From assembly GCA_001464625.1 (NCBI GenBank), contig LNFJ01000004.1, positions 1 through 64,000 of the forward strand: a stretch of 64,000 nucleotides of DNA, written 5' to 3'. Every line of letters starts with the position of its first letter. Positions within the stretch are counted from its first letter, which is position 1. This DNA comes from Bacteroidia bacterium Ga0077558 (GTDB taxonomy: Bacteria; Bacteroidota; Bacteroidia; Chitinophagales; Chitinophagaceae). Made by a program: the position numbers and the translations under genes. The notes under the pieces are model-generated. The model saw only the letters and a list, made by a program, of their open reading frames with translations. It was not told the origin of the DNA and ran no database searches. Positions 8,540-59,769 of the stretch are shown piece by piece.

Positions 8540-9817
8540 TTAATCGGTTTCAGTGTTTTTATCTTTTAGCAGAACTTTATAACCCTCTTTAATTATCACC
8601 TTTACCTGCTTTACTTTACGGGTAAGTAATTGTTTGGCTGTGTTAATACCTGCAGCAGCAGCCTGTGCTTTTAAAGACGGGTCAAGTGTAGTCAACTCCA
8701 TTAGCTGAAGAGTATTATCAGCAGAATTTTTTGCTACATCCCGGCTGATAGAGCCTGGAATATAAATACCAGGCAAGCCATCCATATCATACAGTTCTAA
8801 CTTCACCGGAAATAACTGATTCTTATAGCGGATAGAATTTATTTCTGCTTCCAGCCTTTCATTATTGAGCGATGATATGCCGTTTACAGGTGTGCCTTTA
8901 GGGATAAGAATACCATTAATAAAAACATCTGTAAATAAGCGTAACTGAATTACCGCACCATTTACCAGTGATTGATTGCTGTGAACGACAGCTTCTATAG
9001 TAAAACCTTCAGCGGATTCGTCTGCTTCTTTTGTGGCTCCCAAAAATTGATTGCTGCTGTTTATCTTTTTCTTCATTGTATCCATCAATGATACATCCGC
9101 CAATTTGGGTGAAGTGGTTACAGCAAATACAACCTGCTTTTGTTGTAATGATTTTTCTTTAAGTTTATCTTTCACCCGTTGAGGATGCTGTATGTCTAAT
9201 ATCCTTTCTAAAGTTCCATTGAGCTGTTGCATTTCAGGGTCGCCGTTGTTGCCCTTATTCATTGTCACCATCATGTTTTCCAGCCTCTCCATTTCGCCAG
9301 ATAGTTCATCATCCTGATTAAAATTTGATACATCAAGGTTTTCGCTGACTGGTACTTCAGGCTGTTTACTGATTTCCTTTTGCAGTAATGCTAATTTTTG
9401 GAGTAGTTTTTTTTCAGGGTTATTTTCAGCTATTTCATAAGGTGATGAATTGAGTCGCTGGTTGTACTTTGAAGCTGAGTTTTGAGTAAGCAATTCTAAT
9501 TCGTTTGTTTGCATAGAACCGGTATCTTCTCTTTGCTGGTAGTACGGGTCTGTCCGCATCCACTCCTCTAACTTAGCTGAGTCTTTATCTGCCTTATCAT
9601 AAAAACTAAGCTTGTCAGTAAAGTTTTCATCTTTCATTTTAGCATCAGGGAGATTCAGATTTAATCCCTTTTGACTGGTAACCACAGTTTCTTGTTTACC
9701 TTGCCCGCCACCCAATGCCCAAAATGCCATTGTAAGAAAAGGGATTACCAGCAAGGGTAAAACAAGCATCATTTTTCGTTTCCGCAGGAAGGCCTGCGAC
9801 CTTTGCACACTACTCAT
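8540..9817 (-). CDS. traM: Conjugative transposon TraM-like protein
   Basis: Single TM near N-terminus; C-terminal ...LVNGAVIQLRLFTDVFINGILIPKGTPVNGISSL... typical of TraM. Confidence 0.88.
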   Translation of the reverse strand: MSSVQRSQAFLRKRKMMLVLPLLVIPFLTMAFWALGGGQGKQETVVTSQKGLNLNLPDAKMKDENFTDKLSFYDKADKDSAKLEEWMRTDPYYQQREDTGSMQTNELELLTQNSASKYNQRLNSSPYEIAENNPEKKLLQKLALLQKEISKQPEVPVSENLDVSNFNQDDELSGEMERLENMMVTMNKGNNGDPEMQQLNGTLERILDIQHPQRVKDKLKEKSLQQKQVVFAVTTSPKLADVSLMDTMKKKINSSNQFLGATKEADESAEGFTIEAVVHSNQSLVNGAVIQLRLFTDVFINGILIPKGTPVNGISSLNNERLEAEINSIRYKNQLFPVKLELYDMDGLPGIYIPGSISRDVAKNSADNTLQLMELTTLDPSLKAQAAAAGINTAKQLLTRKVKQVKVIIKEGYKVLLKDKNTETD

Positions 9818-12560: not shown

Positions 12561-13751
12561 TTACGTCTTCCCACTCAACTTATCTTTCATATAACTTCCA
12601 CTACCACTATTCCCTTCTTTAAAATAGCCTTGTGATGCACCAGCGTCGGCCATACTGTTACTCATTTTATTTGCGGCACCGCCAAGTGCATCCCTTGTCA
12701 TAGAAGCGCCACCAACCATTACAGTACGACTGGATGTACTCATCATATTAGTAACCTTATACAACAATGTATTTCCGCCACCGGCATGAATGATATAATT
12801 GGCAACCGAAGGAACAGTGAAATAACCGATGATGCCGATAATCATAAAAATTAAATACGCCGTATCTGTTGTACTGAAAAATGTATCGCCATTGGTAGCT
12901 ATCTGCTGCAAATCTTCTTTCAGCATATTCTCCTGAATTTTACCCATGATGCCGCCAAATATATTGGCGACAGGCAACCACAGAAAGATATTCAGATAGC
13001 GGGCAATCCAAACAGTCAATGTATGCTGAAAACCATCGAATACTGCAATGCCAAAAACTAATGGCCCAAGTATTCCCAGCACAATTAAATAAAACGTTCG
13101 AATAGTATTTATACAAAGTGCAGACGCTTCAAAAAGTACTTTCAGTACCTCACTCATCCATTGTTTAATGGAGTTACGAAAATTGTAGGAGAATTTAGAG
13201 AAGGCGAACTTAATATCATTACCAATACTTTTTACCCATCCTTCTCTTTTATCGCCGTAGTGATACTTGTACCATTTCTCCCTGTCGCCGCTTCCACTGG
13301 CACCAACATACATTTGCCAATAAGCTGTTTTCTTAATGGCTTCTTCTTTCATTTCCAGCAGTTTTGCCACTGCTTTATCAGAGTCTGTTACCATTGCCGC
13401 AGTGGCCGTAACAGTTGGCTTCATTACTCCATTTATCATAGCAATAACAGAAGGAAAAATTAGCACAGCAAAGCCCAACACAAACGGACGAAACAGCGGA
13501 TAAAAATCAACCGGCTCTGCTCTGGCAATATGCCCCCACACTCTTGACGCAATATACCAGGTGGCTGCAAAGCCAGCAATACCACGGCCGACACCTATTA
13601 AACGGCTGCATAGCGGCATCATATCATCGTACAATTTCTCCAACACTTCATGCAGGCTTCGGATGCGGTTTGCCATGCCTTGTGCATCGGCTAAATGAGG
13701 AAGTAATACAAATAATAAAGCAAGCACAGTTATTCTCACACACAATTTCAT
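12561..13751 (-). CDS. traJ: Conjugative transposon TraJ-like polytopic membrane protein
   Basis: Signal peptide + multiple TMs, WGHIARAEPVDFYPLFRPFVLGFAVLIFP; start trimmed to Met at 13751. Confidence 0.88.
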   Translation of the reverse strand: MKLCVRITVLALLFVLLPHLADAQGMANRIRSLHEVLEKLYDDMMPLCSRLIGVGRGIAGFAATWYIASRVWGHIARAEPVDFYPLFRPFVLGFAVLIFPSVIAMINGVMKPTVTATAAMVTDSDKAVAKLLEMKEEAIKKTAYWQMYVGASGSGDREKWYKYHYGDKREGWVKSIGNDIKFAFSKFSYNFRNSIKQWMSEVLKVLFEASALCINTIRTFYLIVLGILGPLVFGIAVFDGFQHTLTVWIARYLNIFLWLPVANIFGGIMGKIQENMLKEDLQQIATNGDTFFSTTDTAYLIFMIIGIIGYFTVPSVANYIIHAGGGNTLLYKVTNMMSTSSRTVMVGGASMTRDALGGAANKMSNSMADAGASQGYFKEGNSGSGSYMKDKLSGKT

Positions 13752-13779
13752 ACACACTACTTTATAAAGGGAAAAAATG

Positions 13780-14406
13780 TCATTTAACCAATCCATGCAA
13801 TCTTCTGCTCATTTCAATTTCGGTGAGTTCTGCTTTACGTTGCAGTGAAAGCATGTTTGTATTATTGGTAAACTCTTTGAGGAATGAATATTGGTCTTCC
13901 ACAGACAGATAAATTTTATCAATTGCCTGCAGCCGTTCATCATCACTCATGCGAAGTCTGCCTGATGTAATTACCATTACCAGTTCATCCAGGCTTTGCA
14001 GGCTGACTTTAAAGAGGTTGGCATATACTTTGCCGAGGTATTCAATCTCATCAGGTGTAAATTGCTTTTCTTCTTTAAAGCGGTTATACGCCAGTTTATA
14101 TTCTTTAGCTATCCGAAGTTGATAGCTGATTATATCTGCAATACGTTTATATTTTTTAACTGCCGGGCTTACCTGCATTAAACCATCTAAGAAAGCTTTA
14201 TGAATGTTGAAATTTCCTTCGGATATATTTTTAACAGCAGTATATCCTTTATTCAGGAGTTTATACCCATCATACATATTCTGCAAAATCTTTTTAAACT
14301 GCGCCAGTTTTTCTATATTGAGTAATAGTTGTTGCACTTCTTCACTTTGTGCTTTTAGTTGAAAACTCATACCGCACATAATCAAAATCACAATTAGTTT
14401 TTTCAT
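13780..14406 (-). CDS. TraI-like conjugative transposon protein, paralog 1
   Basis: Secreted, coiled-coil rich; C-terminal LSLQRKAELTEIEMSRRLHGLVK shared with 14403 and 18879 products. Confidence 0.75.
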   Translation of the reverse strand: MKKLIVILIMCGMSFQLKAQSEEVQQLLLNIEKLAQFKKILQNMYDGYKLLNKGYTAVKNISEGNFNIHKAFLDGLMQVSPAVKKYKRIADIISYQLRIAKEYKLAYNRFKEEKQFTPDEIEYLGKVYANLFKVSLQSLDELVMVITSGRLRMSDDERLQAIDKIYLSVEDQYSFLKEFTNNTNMLSLQRKAELTEIEMSRRLHGLVK

Positions 14407-19960: not shown

Positions 19961-20512
19961 TTAAAGATGATTGAAATAATTTATTTCGTTCCCAAATTGA
20001 TGCCATTGTTCTCTTTTCTCTCTGCTAAACACATCAATTTTTTTCATTCCCGGATATAATTTCTCCACCATTTCATAAGCAAAGTCAGGCTTTCGGCTAT
20101 GTTCCCTGGGTTTAGCGGTAAATACGGTTTTGTATGTTCCCCGATACTCCTTTGCCGGATGCAGTAATTGAGGTTTGTAGTACCAAATCAAATATTCATG
20201 TGAGTAACGAACGGTAAATGCAGGAGCCACTCCATTTTGTTTATCCCATATCATTCGGCAATGTCTTTTATAATTTCTTTCTATCATGTGTTCTTCACAA
20301 TCCAGTAAAAATTGTTCAATCGTCCACATAAATACACAATGAGGCATACTACAGCGGCTAAATATTTCTTTATCCAGCAACATAAATATTTCTTTCGTAG
20401 GCATGGTGGCATAATTCATTTTACACCCTTGATTTGGTCTTACACTTCGCCTTCCACCTTTTACTTTATCCCATGGCGGGTCAATCATCAGTATTTGGTA
20501 TGGGCCTTTCAA
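19961..20512 (-). CDS. MT-A70-family adenine methyltransferase
   Basis: MIDPPWDKVKGGRRS (DPPW motif), EYLIWYYKP, KPDFAYEMVEKLYPG. Confidence 0.85.
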   Translation of the reverse strand: MKGPYQILMIDPPWDKVKGGRRSVRPNQGCKMNYATMPTKEIFMLLDKEIFSRCSMPHCVFMWTIEQFLLDCEEHMIERNYKRHCRMIWDKQNGVAPAFTVRYSHEYLIWYYKPQLLHPAKEYRGTYKTVFTAKPREHSRKPDFAYEMVEKLYPGMKKIDVFSREKREQWHQFGNEINYFNHL

Positions 20513-22974
20513 ACCGCCATTCCGTTTTCCTGAGTTCTTTCCAGTCTTATATCTTCTGCCAAAGCCTTAATTCCTTTTTCTATATCTCCCCCAAATTTTG
20601 CAGCATAACCCTGTACTTTCACTTTTTCCTTTTCTTCCGTTGTATATGCCAGGTATTCTTCCGGCGACACTTCTGTACGATAAACTTTGCTTAATACTCC
20701 ACCAAGTGAAATAAAGACCTCTTTATATTTTTTTGTTGGGTCATTGGCTTTATTGATTGATAATACCAATGCCTTTTCTTTTTCGGTCAATCCCAGCAAT
20801 TCTTGTATCTGGTCAAACTTGTTTTGATACTTACTTTGGTCTAATAATATTTTACAATCACTGTTATTAATAATTGCCTGCTTTACCACTGGAGAAGAAA
20901 TAATGTCTTCTACTTCCTGAGTAACTACAATCGCTTCACCAAAGAACTTTCGCACTGTTTTAAACAGGTACTTAATATATTCTGCCATACCTTCTTTAGC
21001 TATTGCTTTCCAGGCTTCTTCAATCAAAATCATTTTACGAATGCCCTTTAGCTTTCTCATTTTGGAAATAAACACTTCCATGATGATGATGGTTACCACA
21101 GGAAAAAGAATGGGATGGTCTTTGATATTATCCAGTTCAAATACTATAAAGCGTTGCTGCAGTAAATCCAGATTCTCTTTTGCATTCAACAGATAATCAA
21201 ACTCGCCACCTTTGTAATATGGCCGCAGCACATACAGAAAATTGGACACATCAAAATCTTTATCTTTTACATTATCATCTTTCAGCACCGCTACAAAATC
21301 ATCTTTCAAAAATTCATAGAAACTATCAAAGCAGGGAAATAATTTGTTATCGTTCTCTACTTTCTCAAAATATAGTTGCAGGGCATTTGAAAGAGCCACA
21401 TACTCACTTCGGTTAAAGGTTTCATTATCTTTTTTCCACAGAGCTAGTAGCAATGTCTTGATACTTTCCTTTTTCTCTGTGTCCAGTATATCACCCTCGC
21501 CAATATAAAACGGGTTGAACTTAATGGGTTTGGTTTCCGAATAGGTGAAATAATATCCGTTCACCATGTCACATAAGCCTTTATAGGAATGGCCTACATC
21601 TACCAGCACAATATGTGTGCCCTTTTCGTAGTAACTCCTTACCATGTGGTTGGTAAAAAATGATTTTCCGCTGCCGGATGGCCCCAAAATAAACTTGTTT
21701 CTATTGGTGCAGATGCCTTTATCCATTGGTTCATCCGAAATATCCACATGGATGGGTTTACCTGAAAGACGGTCGCCCAAACGGATGCCGATGGGGCTGA
21801 CAGAGGAACGATAATTAGTTTCAAGATTTAAAAAACAACAGGCTTGCGGACTGAAGGTATCGAATGTATCATTCATTGGAAAGTCGGCAGCATTGCCCGG
21901 AATACCTGCCCAGAATATTTGTGCCGAACCTTCTGTTTCCAGTTTGGGTGTGCCGTCCATTTGAGTAAGAGCCGAGGAACACAAATTTCTGATGTTCTTC
22001 AGTTCCTCCTTATTATTTGTCCATGCCAATAAATTGAAATGGGCTTTTACCGGCAATCGTTGTTCACTGATGGCTTCATTCAAAAAATCATCTGTTGCCT
22101 GTTTGCTGATGGCATTTTCTCTGCTGTAAGCAGAAAGTGATTGCAGCCGTAGTCTTTTACTTTCTAATTTCTGCATTGTTTTCTGCACATCCTCAATAAA
22201 CACATACTGATTGTAAATATGATTGCAGGAAAGCAACTGACCAACAGGTGATGCAAAGCCTACGCTGAATTTTGTTTTATCAGTGGAGTACTTATCATAG
22301 TTAATCCTTGAGCCGCACAATGCTGGTACAAATTCTGCGTCTGCCATTGTGTAAAGCTGGCAATGGTTTTCACCAATCTTCCATTCTGGTTTAAATTCAA
22401 TATCTCTTAGTACAACAGAATCATTCCCAAGGTTGAGATAACGAAGAACAAAATCAGCCAGGTGTTCATTCTCAATTTGCTTCATACTTACACAAGCACT
22501 ATCAGTTAGTATTTTTTGAAACTGTCCTACATGGTTCATAAAATCATGAAAGTGTTTCGGCTTTAGGGTTTCTTCCGGCACAATTGTTTTGCGGAGCAGG
22601 CTACTGAAAATTGAAGAACCTGACTTTCTATTTGCAGGTTTCTTTGTAAGCATGATATAACAGCGATGGTCTAAGTAAGGCCGTTCATTAAAGAAGCGGT
22701 CGCTGCTTCTGGTGAGAAAACTGTTGTCTTCCTGAATAAATGAAGGTTTATATTTTGCTTCAGTAAACCAATCCTGCTTGTGCAGTACACTATTAACCGG
22801 TAATACTTTTATAGCTTTTATCCAGGCATGATGAAAAGCCTCGTATTCATCATTACTCATCGTAAACAGTTCGGGCAACTGCACTTCAAACACTATGGTT
22901 ACATCACCCATTTTAGAGAGGATGGCATTGTGCTCAATGGCATATATAGGTAATATCTCATTCAGATTTTTCAT
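20509..22974 (-). CDS. traG: TraG-family conjugation ATPase (VirB4-like)
   Basis: Walker A LGPSGSGKSFFTNH; Walker B-like MILIEEAWKAI; 821 aa. Confidence 0.93.
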   Translation of the reverse strand: MKNLNEILPIYAIEHNAILSKMGDVTIVFEVQLPELFTMSNDEYEAFHHAWIKAIKVLPVNSVLHKQDWFTEAKYKPSFIQEDNSFLTRSSDRFFNERPYLDHRCYIMLTKKPANRKSGSSIFSSLLRKTIVPEETLKPKHFHDFMNHVGQFQKILTDSACVSMKQIENEHLADFVLRYLNLGNDSVVLRDIEFKPEWKIGENHCQLYTMADAEFVPALCGSRINYDKYSTDKTKFSVGFASPVGQLLSCNHIYNQYVFIEDVQKTMQKLESKRLRLQSLSAYSRENAISKQATDDFLNEAISEQRLPVKAHFNLLAWTNNKEELKNIRNLCSSALTQMDGTPKLETEGSAQIFWAGIPGNAADFPMNDTFDTFSPQACCFLNLETNYRSSVSPIGIRLGDRLSGKPIHVDISDEPMDKGICTNRNKFILGPSGSGKSFFTNHMVRSYYEKGTHIVLVDVGHSYKGLCDMVNGYYFTYSETKPIKFNPFYIGEGDILDTEKKESIKTLLLALWKKDNETFNRSEYVALSNALQLYFEKVENDNKLFPCFDSFYEFLKDDFVAVLKDDNVKDKDFDVSNFLYVLRPYYKGGEFDYLLNAKENLDLLQQRFIVFELDNIKDHPILFPVVTIIIMEVFISKMRKLKGIRKMILIEEAWKAIAKEGMAEYIKYLFKTVRKFFGEAIVVTQEVEDIISSPVVKQAIINNSDCKILLDQSKYQNKFDQIQELLGLTEKEKALVLSINKANDPTKKYKEVFISLGGVLSKVYRTEVSPEEYLAYTTEEKEKVKVQGYAAKFGGDIEKGIKALAEDIRLERTQENGMAV

Positions 22975-23400: not shown

Positions 23401-23447
23401 TTTGCGCAGTCAAATAACTGCATTATATTTGCAGTCAAATAGCTGCA
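23401..23447 (+). promoter_or_regulatory. ArsR-type promoter/operator: TTTG-N19-TATATTTG with tandem dyads GCAGTCAAATAACTGCA / GCAGTCAAATAGCTGCA
   Basis: Dyads at 23406-23422 and 23431-23447 flank and overlap the -7 box 23424-23431. Confidence 0.75.
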
Positions 23448-23451
23448 TAAA

Positions 23452-23772
23452 ATGGAAATACGTAGAGATGTTTTTCAGGCAATAGCCGACCCAACACGAA
23501 GAGCAATATTGAGTTTAGTTGTTTTACAAGCAATGACACCGGGTGCAATTGCTGAGCAATTTGATTCTTCCCGACAAACGATTTCAAAGCATATTCAAAT
23601 TCTCACCGAATGTCAATTGCTGAAACAAGAACAAACAGGCCGGGAAATTTATTATCACTTAAACCCCAAAAAAATGAAAGAAATAGCCGACTGGTTAGCA
23701 CCGTTTACAAGAATGTGGGATGACCGATTTAGCCGTTTGGACAAAGTATTAAATAACTTAAAATCAAAATAA
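23452..23772 (+). CDS. ArsR-family transcriptional regulator
   Basis: [18 protein letters not shown]...[37 protein letters not shown]. Confidence 0.92.
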
Positions 23773-23773
23773 A

Positions 23774-24271
23774 ATGACAACAACTAACAAAACTCAAGTA
23801 ATAGCGGAAACAGGTAAACAGGAAGTATTCATAATAAGAGAATTTGATGCACCAAGAGAATTGGTATTCAAAGCATTTTGTACACCTGAGATAATGGTAC
23901 AATTCTATGCGCCTTTTGGATTCAAGATGGAATTCAACTATGCTGATTATAAAAATGGTGGTTCATACAGTTGGTCACATTCTGACGGGGCAGACAAAAT
24001 ATATTGCACATTCAAAGGAGTGATTCATGAAATAGTTTCGCCAGAAAGAATTGTTCAAACCGCAGAGATGGAAGGTTTCCCAGAAGGCGGCCATGTGGTA
24101 TTAGAAGTTTGCACTTTTGAAACACTTCCTGACAATCGTACCAAGATGATTATCCAGGACATTTGCCGTTCAATTGCTGACCGTGACGAAATGGTAAAAA
24201 GCGGTTTTGAAAGTGGTTTGGTCGTAATTTTTGAGCAATTAGATGAATTATTAAAATCTGGTTTGAAGTGA
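23774..24271 (+). CDS. SRPBCC (AHSA1-like) domain protein
   Basis: [31 protein letters not shown]; 1 nt after arsR stop. Confidence 0.88.
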   Translation: MTTTNKTQVIAETGKQEVFIIREFDAPRELVFKAFCTPEIMVQFYAPFGFKMEFNYADYKNGGSYSWSHSDGADKIYCTFKGVIHEIVSPERIVQTAEMEGFPEGGHVVLEVCTFETLPDNRTKMIIQDICRSIADRDEMVKSGFESGLVVIFEQLDELLKSGLK

Positions 24272-56101: not shown

Positions 56102-56599
56102 TTACTCCCGGTATTTGCTAAACACATAATCCTTTTCTGCTTGTGGAGCATGACAGTTATAACAAGCAGTACCAGCCTTTGCCTGGGTTACTATTCTTTT
56201 CTCTTTACTATCTCCGTCAAACTCTTCATATCCCCATCCGCCTGTACTTTTATACTTATCAGTGTCTTTTACCATTACGTCAATAAACTTTCTTTTGCCT
56301 TCGGTAATTGTACTTTCATTTTCTACCATTTCAATAAAATCGGCAACAATAACAGACCCGTTTGGAAATTTGCCAGTTTTATAACCTTCCATTGCTTTAT
56401 CATTCGCATAGATATGATGATAACCCCTTGAGTGCTCCTTGCTTGGGTCTTTCGACGACACAATTGCTGATTTTATATGTGTCCAACTTCTGTATGCCTC
56501 AGGATAGGGGACTTCATTATCCACAGTGGTTTTTTTTGTAAACGCTGTTAGAATAAATATTCCTGCTGCAATGACTAAAACAACAAAAGTCTTTTTCAT
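56102..56599 (-). CDS. Cytochrome P460-family protein
   Basis: Single heme-binding CYNCH near C-terminus; YRSWTHIKSAIV...HHIYANDKAMEGYKTGKFPNGSVIVADF. Confidence 0.85.
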   Translation of the reverse strand: MKKTFVVLVIAAGIFILTAFTKKTTVDNEVPYPEAYRSWTHIKSAIVSSKDPSKEHSRGYHHIYANDKAMEGYKTGKFPNGSVIVADFIEMVENESTITEGKRKFIDVMVKDTDKYKSTGGWGYEEFDGDSKEKRIVTQAKAGTACYNCHAPQAEKDYVFSKYRE

Positions 56600-56826: not shown

Positions 56827-56874
56827 TTTGTGCAACCAATTAATTGCACATATATTTGCAACTGAATGATTGCA
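56827..56874 (+). promoter_or_regulatory. ArsR-type promoter/operator: TTTG-N20-TATATTTG with tandem dyads TGCAACCAATTAATTGCA / TGCAACTGAATGATTGCA
   Basis: Dyads 56831-56848 and 56857-56874 flank the -7 box 56851-56858. Confidence 0.75.
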
Positions 56875-56891
56875 TATTAAACCCGACACAA

Positions 56892-57218
56892 ATGAGAAGA
56901 GATGTTTTTCAAGCAATAGCTGACCCTACCAGAAGAGCAATTCTGGCTCTGATAGCTATACAATCAATGACACCTAATGCATTAGCCGAGCATTTTGACA
57001 GCAGCAGGCAGGCTGTTTCAAAACATATTCAAATATTGACCGAATGCCAGCTTGTTAAACAAGAGCAATCCGGAAGAGAAATTTACTATCAATTAAACCC
57101 CAAAAAAATGAAAGAAATCGCAGACTGGCTGGAACCATTCCGCAAGTTGTGGGAAGGTCGTTTTGACAAACTTGACAAATTATTAATTAATCTAAAATCC
57201 AAAAAAAATGGCAAGTAA
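56892..57218 (+). CDS. ArsR-family transcriptional regulator
   Basis: [24 protein letters not shown]...; start moved from 56844, which lies inside the operator, to Met at 56892. Confidence 0.92.
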
Positions 57219-57702
57219 TAATAAAACACAGATTATAGCGGAAGGCGGCAAGCAAGACCTGTTTATCATCAGGGAATTTGATGCACCCAAAGATTTGGTG
57301 TTTAAAGCCTTTAGCACACCGGAAATTTTAGTCCAGTTTTTTGCACCGCATGGTGCAATTATGAAATTCGATTATTGTGACTTTACTGATGGTGGCAAAT
57401 ACCGTTACACACATGAAGACCCTGCTGGAAATTTGCTTTGTGCATTCAAAGGAGCCATACATGAAATAACTGCATCTGAACGGATAATACAGACAGCCGA
57501 ACTGGAAGGGCTACCAGAAGGGGGGCATGTGATATTGGAAGCGATGACATTCGAATCCCTGCCAGGCGGGAGAACCAGACTAACTATACAGGATGTTTGC
57601 CGCTCTGTTGAAGACAGGGATGCAATGGTAAAAAGTGGTATGGAATATGGGTTGACTATAAGCTTTAACCAACTGGATAAATTATTACTAAAAATTTATT
57701 AA
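57208..57702 (+). CDS. SRPBCC (AHSA1-like) domain protein
   Basis: [31 protein letters not shown]; paralog of 23774 product. Confidence 0.88.
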
Positions 57703-57733: not shown

Positions 57734-58147
57734 ATGGCACAGCTAAATCCTTATTTAAATTTCTGTAATAATAATTGCCGTGAAGCAATGAATTTTTACA
57801 AAGACTGCCTGGGCGGTGAACTAATGCTGCAAACCGTTGGCGAAATGCCGGCAATGGCTGCACAAATGCCCCCGGAGATGAAAGACAGCATTTTACATTC
57901 TTCCTTAACAAATGGAGATATTACAATTTTTGCCTCTGACCTTAACCGGGAAAAGGCGGTTAACGGGAATACTGTTCATCTCTGTATTAACTGTCAGAGT
58001 GAAGATGAATTAAATTCCTTTTTCACAAAACTATCTGCTGGCGGTAAAGTAACAGAACCAATATCCGATATGCCCTGGGGTGCAAAGTATGGTTCGCTGA
58101 CTGATAAATTTGGGAAACATTGGCTATTTAATTTCCAGAAAAACTAA
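57734..58147 (+). CDS. PhnB-like VOC family protein
   Basis: AQLNPYLNFCNNNCREAMNFYKDCLGGELMLQTVGEMP...GKHWLFNFQK. Confidence 0.9.
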   Translation: MAQLNPYLNFCNNNCREAMNFYKDCLGGELMLQTVGEMPAMAAQMPPEMKDSILHSSLTNGDITIFASDLNREKAVNGNTVHLCINCQSEDELNSFFTKLSAGGKVTEPISDMPWGAKYGSLTDKFGKHWLFNFQKN

Positions 58148-58260: not shown

Positions 58261-59154
58261 ATGAAACAACAAATAAGCAGACGCATTGCGTCAATGATGC
58301 TCAGTGCATCCATATTACTGTGCTTGCTTTGTAGTAATAGCTATGCTCAGGAAAATAATTTCAAACAAGTTCAGCCCACAAATAATGGCTATGCACCGGT
58401 TAATGGGCTAAAGATTTACTATGAAATATATGGTGAAGGGAAACCCGTTGTACTACTACATGGTGCTTACTTAAGCAGTGATATGAACTGGGGACAATTG
58501 ATTCCCGAGCTGTCAAAAACAAGAAAAGTAATTACCCTGGAACTACAAGGACATGGAAGAACCGCAGATATCACAAGAGCCATCTCATATCCGGCAATGG
58601 CAAATGACGTTGCAGGCGTACTTAAGTACTTAAAAATTGACAGCGCCGATTTTATTGGTTACAGTTTTGGTGGTACAATTGCTTTTCAGCTTGCAATTTC
58701 GAACCCCCGGCTTGTGAGTAAACTTATTATTATATCGGCTTCTCATAAGTACGAAGCACTGCTACCTGAAGGAAGAGAAATGCTGAAAGGATTCCAAAAT
58801 ACATTCTTTGATGGTTCGCCACTTATGACGGAGTATAAACGATTGGCACCTGACACAGCACACTGGCATGCTTTTGTTGATAAGATGATACGATTTGATA
58901 ATACAGCTTTTAATTTGGGTGATGGAAATATTAAAACAATTAAAGCACCCGTATTACTTGTTATGGGAGATAATGATGGTTTTGACCTTACACAAACTAT
59001 AGCTACTTACAGGCTTTTAGGTGGGGGTGTTTTTGGCGATGTCTCCGGCTTGCCAAAATCCCAGTTGGCAATACTTCCCGGAAAAACACATGTATCTCTA
59101 ATAATGGACACTGAAAAAATTACAAGCACTATAAGGCCATTTCTTAACGAATAA
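58261..59154 (+). CDS. Secreted alpha/beta hydrolase
   Basis: VVLLHGAYLSSDMNWG, FIGYSFGGTIA nucleophile elbow, GKTHVSL. Confidence 0.9.
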   Translation: MKQQISRRIASMMLSASILLCLLCSNSYAQENNFKQVQPTNNGYAPVNGLKIYYEIYGEGKPVVLLHGAYLSSDMNWGQLIPELSKTRKVITLELQGHGRTADITRAISYPAMANDVAGVLKYLKIDSADFIGYSFGGTIAFQLAISNPRLVSKLIIISASHKYEALLPEGREMLKGFQNTFFDGSPLMTEYKRLAPDTAHWHAFVDKMIRFDNTAFNLGDGNIKTIKAPVLLVMGDNDGFDLTQTIATYRLLGGGVFGDVSGLPKSQLAILPGKTHVSLIMDTEKITSTIRPFLNE

Positions 59155-59409: not shown

Positions 59410-59769
59410 ATGAAAGTTCAGCCCCCTAAAACTATTAATGAATATTTGATGCAGTTCCCTGCAGACATTCAAAAGAAACTGGAGCAAATTAGAAAAGCAA
59501 TTAAAAAAACAGCTCCCGGAGCAGAAGAAGCCATAAAGTATTCAATGCCCGCCTTTGTTTACAATGGCAGTAATCTGGTTTATTTTGCAGCTTATAAAAA
59601 ACATATTGGTTTTTACCCGGTTCCGGTTGGGGACGCCTTGTATCTGAGTGAAATCAAACCGTACCATAAAACAAAAGGAGCATTACAGTTTCCAGTAGAT
59701 ACACCTGTTCCAATTGCTTTGGTTGTTAAGATAGTTAGGCTACGCATGAAGGAAATTCAAAATTCTTAG
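59410..59769 (+). CDS. DUF1801-family protein
   Basis: TINEYLMQFPADIQKKLEQIRKAIKKTAPGAEEAIKYSMPAFVYNG. Confidence 0.88.
   Translation: MKVQPPKTINEYLMQFPADIQKKLEQIRKAIKKTAPGAEEAIKYSMPAFVYNGSNLVYFAAYKKHIGFYPVPVGDALYLSEIKPYHKTKGALQFPVDTPVPIALVVKIVRLRMKEIQNS

Follow-up and report, generated by a model that had tools for sequence, protein, structure and literature searches.

Matched recognition helices and predicted operator half-sites in paralogous ArsR-SRPBCC operons of Bacteroidota: a residue-base correspondence

An old question is how paralogous regulators can come to read different sites while remaining functional throughout, and it is raised by two arsR genes in the 64,000-nucleotide stretch of Bacteroidia bacterium Ga0077558 DNA that we analyzed as a whole (hereafter, the window). 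We consider it very probable, from the comparison of operators with recognition helices, that these genes head autoregulated ArsR-SRPBCC operons whose half-sites are read by the helix, and that copy 1 and copy 2 are matched pairs of regulator and operator that diverged together.

We located arsR copy 2 (108 aa) at positions 56892..57218 of the forward strand, as are all genes given below by coordinate range and product unless noted. The product exceeded the cut-offs of the Pfam profiles HTH_20 (44.6 bits, cut-off 27) and HTH_5 (33, cut-off 22), as well as that of NF033788 (81.2, cut-off 55), and its recognition helix comprises residues 39-51. The arsR stop is overlapped by the start of a gene for an SRPBCC (AHSA1-like) protein (57208..57702; PF08327), and the following gene for a VOC/glyoxalase-fold (PhnB/YjdN-like) protein (57734..58147; PF00903 and PF06983) likely belongs to the same operon. 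Further downstream are genes for an alpha/beta hydrolase with a signal-like N-terminus (58261..59154; PF00561) and a DUF1801 protein (59410..59769; PF08818), and a gene for a cytochrome P460-like secreted protein (56102-56599) is divergent from the operon.

The promoter consensus of the main sigma factor of Bacteroidota is TTTG (-33) and TAnnTTTG (-7) (PMC7366714). Both elements of such a sigma-ABfr-type promoter were found upstream of copy 2 on the forward strand: TTTG, at about -33, occupies 56827..56830, 20 bp 5' of the -7 element TATATTTG at 56851..56858, and the transcription start was predicted from them. Two 16-bp dyads of the form GCAAC-N6-ATTGC, with centers 26 bp apart, lie over this promoter. 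The predicted left operator dyad GTGCAACCAATTAATTGCAC (56830..56849, no strand assigned; half-sites GCAAC at 56832-56836 and ATTGC at 56843-56847), with the core TGCAACCAATTAATTGCA at 56831-56848 and a left arm extended to GTGCAA/TTGCAC, fills the spacer between the -33 and -7 elements. The predicted right dyad TGCAACTGAATGATTGCA (56857..56874, likewise strandless; half-sites GCAAC at 56858-56862 and ATTGC at 56869-56873) covers the last bases of the -7 element together with the expected start of transcription, and its initial TG is also the end of TATATTTG. A sequence-only reading had placed the dyads and the -7 box upstream of an arsR start at 56892, and every coordinate was right; its objection to the ORF-track start at 56844 was also borne out, as this start is a TTG inside the left dyad, 5' of the -7 element, and the conserved N-terminus, M-R/K-R-D, begins at the ATG at 56892.

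Copy 1 (arsR, 106 aa; 23452..23772) lies inside a conjugative element and is 77% identical to copy 2 at the protein level, in agreement with the earlier description of the two as close paralogs. Its SRPBCC partner (23774..24271; PF08327) is the sister of the copy 2 SRPBCC protein (SH-aLRT 99), and at both copies SRPBCC/AHSA1 directly follows arsR. The copy 1 promoter comprises TTTG at 23401..23404 (forward strand) as the -33 element, 19 bp rather than 20 bp 5' of the -7 element TATATTTG at 23424..23431 (forward strand); the left dyad GCAGTCAAATAACTGC (23406..23421) and the right dyad TGCAGTCAAATAGCTGCA (23430..23447), neither assigned to a strand, were identified from the sequence and a genome pattern search. 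Operator geometry is alike, as had been proposed, with the same -7 element and dyad centers separated by 25 bp in copy 1 and 26 bp in copy 2. The half-sites, written G1-b2-A3-b4-b5, are GCAGT, GCAGT, GCAGT and GCAGC in copy 1, and GCAAC, GCAAT, GCAAC and GCAAT in copy 2. The proposed change from GCAGT to GCAAC therefore holds for base 4 (G or A) but not for base 5, which is C or T in both copies. Judged by these sequences, what discriminates copy 1 from copy 2 is A or G at base 4, with Ala or Thr as its counterpart at residue 41 (residues are given in copy 2 numbering); neither Val/Ile at residue 42 nor base 5 is discriminating.

We determined by pattern searches how often such arrangements occur in the 4.08-Mb genome. 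A single TGCA-N10-TGCA is ordinary (3 in the window versus 2.4 expected). The double GCAAY dyad was present only at copy 2 and at a third module, and the double GCAGY dyad only at copy 1, with 0 matches in 4.08 Mb for reversed-pattern controls of the double dyad. Every double dyad lies directly 5' of its own arsR gene of the same family, of which the genome contains three. The arsR of the third module (contig 4, 115671, module around 115600-118200; L002, locus 1440-2320) has GCAAC sites with TATATTTG between them, and its product is 80% identical to that of copy 2; the module is followed by genes for two related membrane proteins and a DUF1801-like protein. The regulators had been regarded as a natural pair; they belong to a trio, and the third module carries the copy 2 code. 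Copies 2 and 3, sharing one code, are therefore predicted to cross-bind and cross-talk.

Instead of serving as protein operators, dyads of this kind could form RNA or DNA hairpins, for example those of a terminator or attenuator. Indeed, each dyad can fold (the left one at -5.5 kcal/mol as DNA), and a scanner marked the left one, on either strand, as resembling a terminator. However, the left dyad lies between the -33 and -7 elements, hence 5' of the expected transcript, the stems are 5-7 bp with loops of 6-8 nt and no proper T tract, an Rfam search returned no match, and a hairpin leaves unexplained the tracking of bases with helix residues in about 300 relatives, described below. We accordingly rejected this reading as scarcely credible.

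Whether recognition helices correspond to half-sites across many ArsR-SRPBCC pairs, the check that had been suggested for this locus, was examined in 274 distinct protein-plus-upstream entries obtained from relatives and from order, class and genome collection searches, and the outcome was strongly positive in these homologues and in the held-out set described below. The dyad finder scored A as equal to G at base 4 and C as equal to T at base 5. A double dyad around the -7 box was found in 254 of the 274 upstream regions, with centers separated by 26 bp in 187, 25 bp in 26 and 24 bp in 20; TATATTTG was the -7 box in 218 of these 254, and SRPBCC was the next gene in 237. L109, a contig with the label Beijerinckiaceae, has a gene for an ArsR typical of the family but no recognisable operator.

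Counted over all 254 rows, Ala41 occurred with A4 in 668 of 680 half-sites and Thr41 with G4 in 280 of 292, and the rarer Ser41 and Gly41 were accompanied by A4 (29/32 and 12/12, respectively). Similarly, Pro40 occurred with T2 (140/156), Gln40 with C2 (707/856) or A2 (142/856), and Arg39 with G1 (1000/1016). The rule for residue 44 was looser: Lys was mostly found with C or T at base 5, and Leu, Gln and often Asn with G, but Asn44 was found with G, T or C. By mutual information, residue 41 was the most informative of 90 protein columns about base 4 at three half-sites; at the remaining one, only residue 29 scored higher. For base 2, residue 40 ranked first at all four. When the majority base 4 of each operator was considered, residue 41 agreed in 248 of 248 rows, with six misregistered rows of the 254 set aside.

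We then used proteins supplied by family and phylum searches as a held-out set, the rules having been recorded before these searches. An operator was found for 54 of the 68 new proteins. Residue 41 predicted base 4 in all 54, divergent classes included, and residue 40 predicted base 2 in 51; two of the misses (L361 and L365) reflect a one-residue register shift in which Pro still accompanies T, and the other (L317) is a miscalled left dyad. Base 5 was predicted in 50 of 54, and three of its misses are Gln44 with G5, a residue new to the held-out set. Combined, the 296 distinct proteins gave 296/296 for residue 41, 57/57 for Pro40 and 237/237 for Gln40, after setting aside the six rows above and three held-out rows with misregistered or miscalled dyads.

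The operator and the helix codons are separated by no more than about 210 bp, so that part of this correlation comes from linked inheritance alone, and it might be argued that joint inheritance or recombination accounts for all of it and that residue 41 is not the reader of base 4. Such hitchhiking would agree with the mosaic structure of copy 1 (window 23404-23772): in a half-by-half comparison with few columns and low support, the operator and the N-terminal half of ArsR match the Thr41/GCAGT class (up to 93%), whereas the C-terminal half is nearest to L045 of the Ala41 class, and the SRPBCC protein also falls with another clade than the operator. It would also agree with residue 29 (Asn/Gly) being the next-best predictor of base 4 (98.8%). 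However, the best columns sit in the recognition helix and not anywhere in the N-terminal half, and residues 29 and 41 conflict in three rows, in all of which base 4 agrees with residue 41. The tracking of residue 29 with base 4 probably comes from shared ancestry. The success in divergent classes of the held-out set also argues against hitchhiking, as do the different bases that track different residues and change as often as these do: when the recognition-helix columns were omitted from the tree, Thr41 and G4 needed six changes each, Pro40 and T2 five each, and residue 44/base 5 nine. On well-supported branches, a first tree placed three switches of residue 41 and three of residue 40, and a larger tree one of residue 41, two of residue 40 and two of residue 44; these were all concordant, at numbers too small for sign-test significance. 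Independent switches number about six. The clearest natural switch is L110/L160, where Thr41 occurs with four GCAG half-sites although the background is otherwise that of Ala41/GCAAC; identity outside the helix to L162 (Ala41 and four GCAAC) is 79-80%. Here the code switched within an unswitched background. Taken together, hitchhiking as the whole explanation is unlikely, and we retain the reading of base 4 by residue 41.

Joint inheritance may nevertheless describe how copy 1 arose. It likely gained its linked operator-plus-helix block by recombination, as suggested by the mosaic, so that the claimed co-divergence stands in that helix and half-sites track together but perhaps not, for copy 1, as step-by-step mutation. 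We tentatively extend this idea, giving it less than even weight, to a cassette of ~250 bp comprising operator and recognition helix that is swapped between ArsR-SRPBCC paralogues by recombination, such that a mobile copy arrives already insulated; copy 1 would be such a swap, combining an SRPBCC protein sister to that of copy 2 with an operator and HTH of GCAGT-clade origin. It is consistent with this reading that, in a non-random sample, 9 of 55 pairs of paralogues from the same genome had a common code, fewer than the 16 obtained by shuffling (P about 0.01). The conjugative element around copy 1 is of the CTnDOT type (window 5000-36700) and contains several VOC/SRPBCC genes besides copy 1; it encodes a TraG ATPase (20509-22974), TraJ (12561-13796), TraM (8540-9817) and DUF4133/DUF4134 proteins.

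Within the SKHLR class, the outer half-sites are often GAAAC, and the inner two GCAAC, for example at L020, L023, L026, L072 and L093. A at base 2 was counted in 67 of 184 outer-left, 7 of 184 inner-left, 1 of 184 inner-right and 67 of 184 outer-right half-sites. A pre-stated rule that Leu46-Arg47 alone gives this outer A failed in the held-out set (19/27). Residue 38 (Thr) plays a part as well, and the outer A2 correlates with both 38 and 47 (Ser38-Arg47 22/23, Thr38-Lys47 13/26 and Ser38-Lys47 4/52). The asymmetry is consistent in this class and is not explained by one residue; it could be due to the inner half-site sharing bases with the -7 box. Distant Pro40-Ala41 members (L351, L355, L358, L362 and L366) have one clear GTAAC-N6-GTTAC dyad, not two.

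On this basis, each module would be an autoregulated ArsR-SRPBCC operon. A winged-helix ArsR dimer would bind each of the two inverted repeats, one in the promoter spacer and the other over the -7 box and start, and ArsR on both dyads would block RNA polymerase at its own operon. The recognition helix (39-51) would read the half-site through Arg39 at G1, residue 40 at base 2, residue 41 at base 4 and residue 44 at base 5, making Ala41 of copy 2 with GCAAY and Thr41 of copy 1 with GCAGY matched pairs. Neither copy 1 nor copy 2 would bind the site of the other. Bound ArsR might also activate, as does HlyU, which is related by fold and has a positive effect on its target (PMC4330345), or the dyads might be used in trans by another regulator. 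However, the sites lie over the spacer and the -7 box/start, a blocking position, in nearly all relatives, the only double dyads of the genome each precede their own arsR gene, and the sites track the helix of the adjacent ArsR, which is therefore the likely reader. Activation or action in trans is thus very unlikely, and autorepression is favored. These results support the view that the modules are ordinary in kind, as autoregulated ArsR operons, and that the proposed co-divergence, with the corrections given above, holds at the level of sequence, where it can be quantified and allows predictions.

The system is unusually tractable, as the classes differ by a single residue and, in each half-site, a single base, with no constraint from either class on base 5; nature also provides switches with the background almost unaltered (L110/L160 versus L162), and many Bacteroidota have several copies. 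Cognate operators are predictable from protein sequence in a family that is widespread and, as far as we found, uncharacterised, and orthogonal repressor-operator pairs for use in Bacteroidota genetics are suggested by the code.

In the AlphaFold model of copy 2 ArsR (pLDDT 91), the recognition helix (39-51) starts at Arg39, so that residues 39, 40 and 44 correspond to HTH positions 1, 2 and 6, and residue 41 to position 3. Positions 1, 2 and 6 have been described as base-reading (PMC5045206). Arg39 is invariant in the homologues and G1 nearly so, and Arg39-G1, Ala/Thr41-base 4 and Pro40-T2 may be direct contacts. The nearest Foldseek matches were the uncharacterised structures 3f6v, 2oqg and 3f6o (E about 1e-6), followed by NolR, SmtB, CzrA, HlyU and SqrR (E 1e-5 to 1e-4); in NolR, solved with DNA, Gln56 at the start of the recognition helix contacts bases (PMC8960804). 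The ArsR/SmtB winged-helix repressors (SmtB, CzrA, NolR, HlyU and RexT) have the same fold, and inverted-repeat sites and recognition by helix alpha-4 would also be shared, whereas the modules here have two dyads over a Bacteroidota promoter, an SRPBCC partner and a family-wide residue-base correspondence. No paired-Cys metal or redox site was found, copy 2 having a single Cys (C52) that is Ala in copy 3.

The SdpR subfamily (NF033789) was among the top two profiles in all 28 members scanned, and its autorepressor logic is like that proposed here. Membership was rejected, the scores of 76.7 bits for copy 2 and 79.9 for copy 1 being below the curated cut-off of 100. The partner of SdpR is an SdpI-type immunity membrane protein, whereas the partner here is SRPBCC. 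In the open literature, which misses most subscription papers, we found nothing relevant on an ArsR recognition code or on ArsR-SRPBCC. Protein-DNA correlation codes have been described for MerR (PMC5045206) and, as cited in that paper, for LacI, Rex and NrtR. These codes likewise relate helix residues to site bases by mutual information, at overlapping helix positions 1, 2 and 6; in contrast, the correspondence described here concerns the ArsR family, is strongest at position 3 (residue 41) and was checked in a held-out sample.
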